Assembly (NCBI RefSeq): GCF_030848565.1
Contig: NZ_JAVDDV010000005.1
Span: 186,001-250,000, forward strand
Direction: 5' to 3'
DNA length: 64,000 nucleotides
DNA from: Natronolimnohabitans sp. A-GB9
GTDB lineage: Archaea > Halobacteriota > Halobacteria > Halobacteriales > Natrialbaceae
Of this stretch, positions 51,939 to 54,222 are shown in pieces. Positions within the stretch are counted from its first letter, which is position 1. Each line of letters begins with the position of its first letter. The notes beneath the pieces were generated by a model that ran no database searches, was not told the origin of the DNA, and saw nothing but the letters and a program-made list of their open reading frames with translations. A program made the position numbers and the translations under genes.

Positions 51939-52010
51939 GGGCTCGTAGATCAGTGGCAGATCGCTTCCTTCGCAAGGAAGAGGCCCCGGGTTCAAATCCC
52001 GGCGAGTCCA
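51939..52010 (+). tRNA. tRNA-Ala (anticodon CGC)
   Basis: 72 nt, full cloverleaf: acceptor GGGCTCG/CGAGTCC with the G3-U70 wobble that identifies alanine tRNAs, D arm GATC/GATC, anticodon stem CTTCC/GGAAG with loop TTCGCAA (anticodon CGC), T arm CCGGG/CCCGG with TTCAAAT, discriminator A. No CCA encoded, no intron. A TATA-like TACAAATAG at 51906-51914 precedes it. Its 3' end is duplicated downstream, typical of an integrase target. Confidence 0.95.
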
Positions 52011-52061
52011 TGATTTCTGCGTCGCGAGCAAATCCGCGAGCGACGCGAATCGTCGTCGAAG

Positions 52062-52223
52062 CCCGGATTTGAACCCCTGGAAGTCGCAGCGCGAGCGAAG
52101 CGTGCGACCGTCTTCCAACGGTTCAAATCCCGGCGAGTCCACTTCTTCACGTCGCTTCACTCGTTCAGTCGTGGACTCGCCGTAGTCACACTCGCTTCGC
52201 TCGCGTGACTCCCGGCGAGTCCA
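52062..52223. repeat. duplicated and inverted copies of the tRNA-Ala 3' end (att-like sites)
   Basis: Direct copies of the tRNA 3' end at 52120-52141 (22 nt, GGTTCAAATCCCGGCGAGTC and CA) and 52210-52223 (14 nt). Inverted partial copies at about 52063-52078 (CCGGATTTGAACCC) and 52172-52182 (TGGACTCGCCG). Integrases that use tRNA genes leave such duplications; several nested copies suggest repeated integration and excision. No integrase gene is seen here. Confidence 0.75.
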
Positions 52224-52400
52224 CTATGCTGAAACGGGTCGAAGTATTAGCGAGTGGTCTCAACAGCGTTGAGTGGACGTTTCCCGTGATTTCGCTGGAG
52301 GTGTAGCGCATCGGTGAAGGCACATGCCTCGTCTGCGTAGGTGAAGTGAAGTCATTCTATCGATAGCAGAAACCGATATGTAGCCGAACAAGAGGGGATG
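52224..52400. other. accessory-type intergenic stretch with a possible coding relic
   Basis: Together with the att-like copies this makes a 390-bp gene-free stretch after the tRNA (52011-52400). On the minus strand about 52247-52354 there is a stop-bounded frame, 35 codons, reading TYADEACAFTDALHLQRN and HGKRPLNAVETTR, which looks like a fragment of a real protein rather than random DNA. No start and no family assigned; a broken mobile-element gene is possible. Confidence 0.25.
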
Positions 52401-52946
52401 TTAATTCCCCACTGTGCGTGGTACCTGTTCTGGTCGCGCAATTGTGGTGCTGACAACCCTCGAGACTGTCTCCGCGAACTCGAGTTGGTCCTCTTCGAGT
52501 TCGATTTTCTTAATTACCGATCCGGATTCGTGTTGCAATTCGAGAGTGACATTCCCGCTTTCAGGATTGTAGCCCTCAATTAGCAGAATTAGGCCCATGA
52601 TCCCAACGCCGAGACCTACGAGTACGGTCAATCCCAGTACTGCACCATCGACAAAGGCCGATATCCCTAGAGCGAAAAGTGCAACGAGAAGCGATATCGC
52701 TCCGGATATGACCGTGTCTTCGTCGTAATCAGGTGATCGCTCGTGCCTGATCTTCGTGCCGCCAACAAGCGGTAGCTGAAGCGTATCGACGACCGTCTTT
52801 TCTCCACTCCTCCCTTGCGTTTTGATCGAGAAAAACCGCTTATCAGTTAGAAAATGACTTTCGTGGCCGGTTGACACCATTTCAATCGCAGTTTCATTTT
52901 CTCCGAGAAGTGGTTTGACCGTCTCTGCATGTTCCTTCGGAGGCAT
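52401..52946 (-). CDS. accessory membrane protein with PH-like N-terminal region
   Basis: 181 aa. Residues about 10-70 (AIEMVSTGHESHFLTDKRFF, then SIKTQGRSG) resemble bacterial-type PH-like domains that follow the pattern 'signal-loop-T-xx-R'. Two helices follow (VISGAISLLVALFALGISAF, and VLGLTVLVGLGVGIMGLILL), then a charged C-terminal domain ending EQVPRTVGN. Base composition is visibly more AT-rich than its neighbours, with AAA, AAT, TTT codons, consistent with recent arrival. ATG at 52946 preferred over a TTG upstream. Confidence 0.65.
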   Translation of the reverse strand: MPPKEHAETVKPLLGENETAIEMVSTGHESHFLTDKRFFSIKTQGRSGEKTVVDTLQLPLVGGTKIRHERSPDYDEDTVISGAISLLVALFALGISAFVDGAVLGLTVLVGLGVGIMGLILLIEGYNPESGNVTLELQHESGSVIKKIELEEDQLEFAETVSRVVSTTIARPEQVPRTVGN

Positions 52947-53200
52947 TGACAGATAACCATCCAACTAGAGAGTGTTGATACTTTCGCCGAGTATCGGTTT
53001 TGATAATTACGATTGGGGATCAGTACTGGTAGCTTCTATTCCGGGTTGCGCTCAGATGTGTTGGGAGACCTCGATGTCTGTAACTTCTCGTGGGTGATGG
53101 GCCGCACGGATGCATAGCAGGAGACTGCCGGACAGTATTACCCTCACAGCCCAGCATGTTTACGAAACCAGCCGGTTCGACCGACGGTCGACAGATCCCC

Positions 53201-53338
53201 TCACTCGAGCAGAACCGCGAGTGACAGTGCGACTGCGACGATCACGACCACCGCGAGCACTCCAATCGCGAGGTAGAGCCACGGAGAGGCGCCGGCAAGC
53301 ACTCCAACAGCCAGAGACAGGATCGGAGGTGTGGCCAT
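53201..53338 (-). CDS. 45-aa single-TM microprotein
   Basis: An ATG at 53338 opens MATPPILSLAVGVLAGASPW and continues through one long hydrophobic helix (LYLAIGVLAVVVIVAVALSL) to a TGA at 53201, 45 codons. Upstream (minus strand) a TACGTATTTGC stretch could be a TATA box for a leaderless transcript. No homology can be judged at this length. It lies in the accessory patch downstream of the tRNA. Confidence 0.45.
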   Translation of the reverse strand: MATPPILSLAVGVLAGASPWLYLAIGVLAVVVIVAVALSLAVLLE

Positions 53339-53464
53339 AGTCGACGGTAGTAGTTCCGAGAGCAAATACGTACTGTTACGCCGACCGTCGGCCCTGGTAG
53401 TGTCACAGCCGCCCGTTCGACACGAAGCCGTGGAGTTATTGTCTCGGAAGTCAACCGTTCTCGT

Positions 53465-53641
53465 ATGGTGTCAGCAGCCGTTTCCTGTCCATACTGTGGA
53501 GCCGAAAACACGGCGTCGCTCCCCGACCAGACCGACGTGAAAGAGGTAACACAGTCGTATCGGACGGGGCTTCGGGGCAAACAAAATCTGGTCGAACTTA
53601 CGTGTTCGTGTGGGAGCCACTTCGGCGTCACGTACGAGTAA
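53465..53641 (+). CDS. 58-aa zinc-ribbon protein
   Basis: An ATG at 53465 opens 58 codons: MVSAAVSCPYCGAENTASLP, then a linker, then LVELTCSCGSHFGVTYE ending TAA. The two Cys pairs (C-P-Y-C and C-S-C) form a zinc ribbon. Many such haloarchaeal microproteins exist; some bind nucleic acids or proteins. Function unknown. Divergent from the 45-aa membrane microprotein. Confidence 0.6.
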   Translation: MVSAAVSCPYCGAENTASLPDQTDVKEVTQSYRTGLRGKQNLVELTCSCGSHFGVTYE

Positions 53642-53766
53642 CTCGAACGCCTCGCAGAGGAAGCCCGTCGGTCGATTTCTCGAAGCCGACACCGTTTCAC
53701 TCTCGAGTCAGGAGTAGAGTCGTGTGACCGGTCGCACCCGACTCGAGAGCCGGTGACGGTGCCCCA

Positions 53767-54081
53767 TTACGTGGATCGGTCGCGCTCGAGCCACGTCACG
53801 AGCCGCTCGACGGCGGCCTCGGCGACGGCGTCGGCGATCCGGTCGGGCGACTCGGTGAGATCCCAGACGTACTCGCCGTCGCGGGTGACGGTCACCCACT
53901 CGACGTAGTCGCCACGATCGAGTTCGAGCAGGAGGGCTTCGAGAATGTCTTCGTCGAGTCGACAGTCGAGTGTCTTTTCGATGTGGCCGACGAGCTGGGA
54001 CGTAGTCACACGGATTCGCTCGTCGTCGACTGGCTGTGAGACACTGGAGGGGGTAGGTGGGGACGGCGGCTGTTCGGACAT
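53767..54081 (-). CDS. small uncharacterised haloarchaeal-type protein
   Basis: 104 aa starting at the ATG at 54081 (an in-frame ATG at 54162 would add 27 Ser/Thr-rich residues). Core: RVTTSQLVGHIEKTLDCRLD (about residues 24-43), DILEALLLELDRGDYVEWVT (about 45-64), and a final helix ADAVAEAAVERLVTWLERDR. The pattern is helix-helix-strand, reminiscent of a winged-helix or dimerisation module, but not assignable. It diverges from the BNR-repeat gene. Confidence 0.6.
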   Translation of the reverse strand: MSEQPPSPPTPSSVSQPVDDERIRVTTSQLVGHIEKTLDCRLDEDILEALLLELDRGDYVEWVTVTRDGEYVWDLTESPDRIADAVAEAAVERLVTWLERDRST

Positions 54082-54222
54082 CGTCGAGCCAGTGGTTGGA
54101 AGTTGACCCGTATTAGTTCTGGTGGAACTCCGATCCCCGTGACTATCGACATCGTCGGTCACCTACTAGCGAGGATCGTCCCTTGCCCCGAGTCTTAGAG
54201 GCTGGCTCCCGTATGCAAGCGT

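Follow-up and report, generated by a model that had tools for sequence, protein, structure and literature searches.

Two very small, recurrent DNA units lie behind the tRNA-Ala(CGC) gene in the 64,000-nucleotide stretch that we analysed (the window; positions 186001-250000 of contig C45 in a 4.3-Mb haloarchaeal draft genome). We read this array as a pair of cargo-less, non-autonomous cassettes that recombination at the tRNA tail may add, remove and reorder, and we give this reading about an even chance. The units have a defined architecture, are attached to tRNA genes, are precisely present or absent from one site to another, and have boundaries in common with elements that encode integrases. 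The features of the array are listed in the table.

Table. Components of the array behind tRNA-Ala(CGC), in window coordinates
Feature	Position	Strand	Basis and remarks
tRNA-Ala(CGC) gene	51939-52010	+	ARAGORN; Rfam tRNA, 68.8 bits; repeat table
Unit I (131 bp), made up of hairpins A and B and a tail copy	52011-52141	+	Sequence and repeat table; layout recurs at other tRNAs
Hairpin A (GCGTCGC..GCGACGC)	52019-52046	+	Kin to the motif GCGAACAAnTCCGTGAGCG found behind many tRNAs
Left arm of hairpin B, an inverted copy of the T-arm	52061-52076	-	15/16 nt
Core of hairpin B, with AGTCGCAGC..CGTCT conserved inside covarying stems	52065-52130	+	Model R1, 86.9 bits; covariation
First direct copy of the tRNA 3' end	52120-52141	+	22/22 nt; last base is the discriminator base
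Unit II, 82 bp: tail/inverted-copy hairpin, second hairpin and third tail	52142-52223	+	Sequence and repeat table
Inverted copy of the tRNA 3' end within unit II	52171-52182	-	12 nt; fully complementary to 52213-52224
Second hairpin of unit II (GTCACACTCGCTTCGCTCGCGTGAC)	52185-52209	+	Sequence
Second direct copy of the tRNA 3' end	52210-52223	+	14 nt identical; repeat table

The source of the tail copies is the last 22 nt of tRNA-Ala(CGC) (51989-52010), the only tRNA that ARAGORN predicts in the window. Unit I runs from hairpin A through the inverted T-arm, a variable stem, the AGTCGCAGC..CGTCT interior and the second stem half to the tail copy. Unit II, also a double hairpin, is shorter and includes an inverted acceptor end. 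An earlier note on this DNA had described two direct and two inverted pieces of the tRNA 3' end, and all four are present; the inverted T-arm piece, at 52061-52076, had been placed at about 52063-52078. The note had suggested that the inverted pieces could be hybrid att sites. They are instead arms of conserved hairpins in the two recurrent units. The repeats go far beyond what shuffled sequence produces: with up to 3 mismatches allowed, the window contains the tail 22-mer two times against 0.00 expected from 100 dinucleotide shuffles, and the 11-mer CGGCGAGTCCA occurs five times against 0.14 expected, with four of the five in the array. The fifth exact CGGCGAGTCCA lies on the minus strand at 2149-2159 and is probably there by chance, since the window's only tRNA is at 51939. 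To the right of the array, GC content falls as low as 0.49 in a patch (52224-54160) that finds no match in the flank of the sister species. A 187-aa ORF in this patch (52401-52964, minus strand) has only weak, sub-threshold Pfam matches (bPH_1 and Borrelia_P13), and an ORF at 54223-55251 matches BNR and Sortilin-Vps10 repeats and likely encodes a beta-propeller protein.

A query of 821 bp around this site revealed that the 170 bp downstream of tRNA-Ala(CGC) recur behind other tRNA genes. In the same genome they are found at 90% identity behind tRNA-Ala(GGC), and behind the tRNA-Ala genes of other genera identity is mostly 80-88%. More diverged copies, also in this genome of the window, follow tRNA-Gly(GCC) (twice), tRNA-Leu(TAA) and tRNA-Gly(TCC), each closed by the 3' end of its own tRNA. 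A hand count that excludes a pair of tRNA-Asp genes in tandem, one spurious Cys call and one duplicate Ala call gave about 19 of 44 tRNAs in this genome with a unit bearing the tail of its own tRNA, and decayed units are present at several others. Unit II has only a partial second copy in the genome, at tRNA-Ala(GGC); the same unit type occurs in other species.

We built a covariance model of hairpin B (R1) from 15 sequences. R1 matched all 121 genomes of the host's family (E ≤ 0.01) and 178 of the 195 genomes of its order, usually in many copies. Family genomes had from 1 to 34 matches, counts that may include a few antisense palindrome matches and tandem copies. A phylum-level sample gave matches in 21 of 148 genomes (E ≤ 1e-4), all of them in the host's order, and at least three order members had no match among the genomes listed, a list that omits 107 of those without a match. 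A strict unit pattern found nothing in viral contigs, and a search of phage sequences with the unit was also negative. We rejected a viral origin: a loose pattern picked out 120 viral stretches, and R1 matched none of the 80 that were tested. The plasmid search returned nine records, of which only the 827-kb replicon of Natronorubrum bangense appeared related, and the annotated neighbourhood of that match shows no integrase.

The tRNA genes that precede unit I cover almost every isotype. Among the first 67 R1 matches that we checked, 65 lie downstream of a tRNA on the same strand. In four complete genomes of one genus, each of the 96 matches (E ≤ 1e-4) follows either a tRNA or the tail of one. 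These comprise 89 behind an ARAGORN tRNA (median 63 nt), one behind a tRNA missed by ARAGORN (L482, read by eye as Gln-like with an intron), and six behind a tail situated at the boundary or end of another gene or element. Five of the six tail-only matches, from four events (L384 with two, L452, L458 and L480), adjoin a tyrosine integrase that is a relative of the L122 integrase. The sixth, L467, follows the end of a different gene, and a search for an integrase there found none. The other two of the 67 looked like free copies, a reading that we rejected: L101 has been displaced from its tRNA by an integrase element, and L118 follows an intron-bearing tRNA-Trp that ARAGORN misses by default and an intron search recovers.

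The units also carry the tail of the particular tRNA that they follow. In a set of 199 tRNAs enriched for units, 138 have a copy of their own tail (last 15 nt, up to 2 mismatches) within 500 nt, compared with 16 of 3067 tail swaps, and 77 of 131 first tail copies match at 20/20 nt. For 51 of 61 units, the inverted T-arm fits the unit's own tRNA more closely than it fits other tRNAs on average. Because T-loops are nearly universal, however, one third of the other tRNAs fit equally well in the median unit.

Hairpin B is a conserved imperfect hairpin, and its folding in vivo is a prediction. In an alignment of 64 B hairpins, of which 63 are distinct, 95.2% of cells are paired compared with 84.6% after shuffling; the alignment was fitted to the model and is biased towards it. 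The covariation score is 0.322 compared with 0.138, none of 500 shuffles scored as high, and the signal is lost on sliding the partners. Covariation of this strength is one of several points in favour of a structured RNA, in which the units would be trailers co-transcribed with the tRNA and the hairpins would serve 3' processing, folding protection or transcription termination. The units always lie downstream of the tRNA on the same strand, and one study (PMC7237163) reports hairpins able to terminate transcription in Haloferax volcanii. The T-loop stem of the units contains 39 G-U and 7 A-C mismatches, and the sense strand folds lower than the antisense strand in 90 of 131 units and in 41 of 61 non-redundant units. 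This G-U excess and the slightly lower sense folding give some indication of RNA. Other strand comparisons point away from it. A strand-neutral palindrome search gave 63 G-T and 49 A-C mismatches in the units, a difference that is not significant, whereas tRNAs gave 33 and 8. The share of G-U in the folded units is lower in sense (0.050) than in antisense (0.073), the opposite of tRNAs, and the energy-based strand comparison is thus mixed, as energy favours the sense strand but G-U share does not. The two most variable pairs of hairpin B take all four Watson-Crick types with zero G-U in 64 rows each. Orthologous tRNAs in many species have no units, and an Rfam 15 search of the tRNA-Ala(CGC) stretch returned the tRNA alone above the gathering score, with no known RNA family for the units. 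The mismatch pattern favours palindromes at the DNA level or arms copied from each other, and we consider an RNA function unlikely as the explanation for the units.

Compensated stems that lack G-U intermediates are also expected of strand switching, as are loop inversions, and by hand count 2 of the 22 type II units have a loop that is inverted precisely between the inverted tails. The units might then be by-products of replication or repair, made, perfected and duplicated without a dedicated enzyme by palindrome-driven template switching and by recombination between short repeats. The tandem copies and precise losses are compatible with recombination between 22-bp repeats. However, units at unrelated tRNAs have the AGTCGCAGC..CGTCT interior in common, usually with its mismatch retained, and R1 has no match outside the order among the genomes listed. 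A general mutational process would not yield units with a conserved interior at unrelated tRNAs and a distribution restricted to one order among those genomes, and we regard this origin as quite unlikely.

Comparison of tRNA-Ala(CGC) across the first 80 records revealed empty sites, sites with either unit alone, and sites with both units or with units in tandem. The earlier note had held that a single identical scar in all strains, with no element ever found at this tRNA, would speak against its account, and the relatives instead differ in both the content and the order of the units, which is I-II in the window and II-I in L250 and L267. One record, from Halorubrum sp. Atlit-26R (L323), has four tail copies behind tRNA-Ala(CGC) with an exact period of 87 bp. 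Beyond their final tail, several filled loci carry the sequence found directly 3' of the tRNA in empty loci. The filled/empty pair of Natrinema zhouii (L261) and Natrialba sp. SSL1 (L281) scored 44.5 against a shuffle maximum of 14, and a pair from two metagenome genomes (L246 and L247) scored 42 against 15. Further pairs are Halovenus salina (L313) with Haloparvum sedimenti (L308), L004 with L292 and, more weakly, L009 with L280, in a set that contains duplicates (such as L083/L259 and L010/L257) and in which some of the 51 "empty" loci retain decayed units. Filled and empty sites differ by the unit and nothing else, so each gain or loss falls right at the end of the tRNA. The site is empty in the sister species (L253). 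The outer flank of the window's array found no matching empty site, with a score of 12.5 against a shuffle maximum of 13.5, and the window's own event is thus undated. Within one genus, mean unit identity is 0.718 at the same tRNA in another species and 0.624 otherwise. Since identity is higher at the same tRNA across genomes, the units are largely inherited vertically, with turnover. The nearest neighbours of 60 units were at the same tRNA in another genome in 18 cases, at another tRNA in the same genome in 12, and at a different tRNA in a different genome in 30.

We compared the units with large integrase elements that use the same boundaries. As the earlier note had stated, no such element is present in the window today: the genome has 17 Phage_integrase matches, none of them on contig C45, and the L122 integrase used as a tblastn query gave no match in the window. 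The note had proposed looking in related strains for integrative elements at this tRNA and for an integrase with a matching core, and an element with such a core exists at another tRNA-Ala in a relative. In genome G268, a 44-kb element with a matching core separates tRNA-Ala(GGC) from unit I and encodes a 335-aa tyrosine integrase (PF00589). A relative of the element's left end, about 185 bp long, lies shortly behind the tail of this unit I, as though this tail had served a second element as its landing site. This is a single case, and a search of the next 60 kb for a second intact tail found none. Elsewhere in the genome that contains the window, a GGTTCAAATCCGGG tail is found 8.7 kb from a tRNA-Phe bearing the same motif (L068 and L375; C56:72720-81514). 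Close to this tail is an integrase with 46% identity to the L122 integrase, and the region is likely an integrated element.

The earlier note had explained the array by repeated integrase-mediated insertion and excision. Ordinary integrative elements with the same core are present at these tRNAs, and the tails are direct repeats (22/22 nt), both of which fit scars of such events. What survives of that account is a recombination-prone tRNA 3' end; a random pile of scars does not describe pieces that form two recurrent units. The units are uniform in length, with conserved, covarying content across many isotypes and genera. The ends of the G268 element are also unlike them: neither hairpin A nor hairpin B was found there, and the units are therefore not simple deletion forms of that element. 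The scar explanation is disfavoured, and we consider it very improbable.

If the units are cassettes, they would be gained, lost and reordered through recombination at the tail copies. The actors would most likely be tyrosine recombinases of resident integrative elements working in trans, which would recognise the tail together with the folded hairpins. Repeated recombination or conversion would keep each tail copy identical to its tRNA. The inverted unit II loops and the DNA-like pairing at the two most variable pairs of hairpin B count in favour of this reading. A simple site-specific crossover leaves the recipient's tail on a moved unit unexplained, which weighs against the cassette reading. 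So do the G268 element ends with neither hairpin A nor B, the large share of vertical inheritance, the negative viral and phage searches, the failure of the window's array to find a matching empty site, and a strand asymmetry that hints at RNA. We propose more tentatively, and with more doubt than belief, that the units represent a new class of recombination cassette. Its members would link a strand-specific folded DNA hairpin to the T-loop and tail of a tRNA, each with the tail of its host tRNA, and their arrays at about half of tRNA genes would act as shared landing platforms for haloarchaeal integrative elements. We found no description of the unit I repeat family in the open-access literature, a search whose coverage takes in few subscription papers.

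The 3' ends of tRNA genes are main entry doors for mobile DNA into archaeal genomes. Hairpin cassettes that occur across an order, rebuild the tail of each tRNA and have integrase elements landing beside them offer a testable system for how these doors are kept, multiplied and shared. They also carry a warning, as tail copies near haloarchaeal tRNAs are poor evidence for an excised element.

Several known systems resemble the units in part. Integron arrays consist of exchangeable units punctuated by a recombination core, and their attC sites are imperfect hairpins with conserved bulges. The units described here are likewise arrayed and core-punctuated with a conserved imperfect hairpin, but they carry no cargo and their core is a tRNA end; a search with the general Phage_integrase profile found no linked integron integrase at the window. 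REP and BIME sequences are conserved imperfect palindromes present many times per genome. The units share these properties, but they are fixed behind tRNA genes, with a tail copy and an inverted T-arm fitted to the tRNA. MITEs and the PATE and SMR repeats of Haloquadratum are described (PMC3119063) as short, non-coding, multi-copy and hairpin-bearing, and all of this applies to the units. Unlike those repeats, the units are tied to tRNA genes and flanked by a long tail copy derived from the target; a target-derived duplication is thus present, and in four complete genomes the units occur only at tRNAs. Haloarchaeal integrative elements of the SNJ2 type and others with tyrosine integrases use the tRNA 3' end as core, and the direct repeat restores the gene, according to a review of archaeal tyrosine recombinases (PMC8371274). 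The units differ in being small (about 82-170 bp) and gene-free, and the ends of the G268 element lack the hairpins that the units carry, but units and elements alike have the tRNA 3' end as core and meet at the same boundaries.
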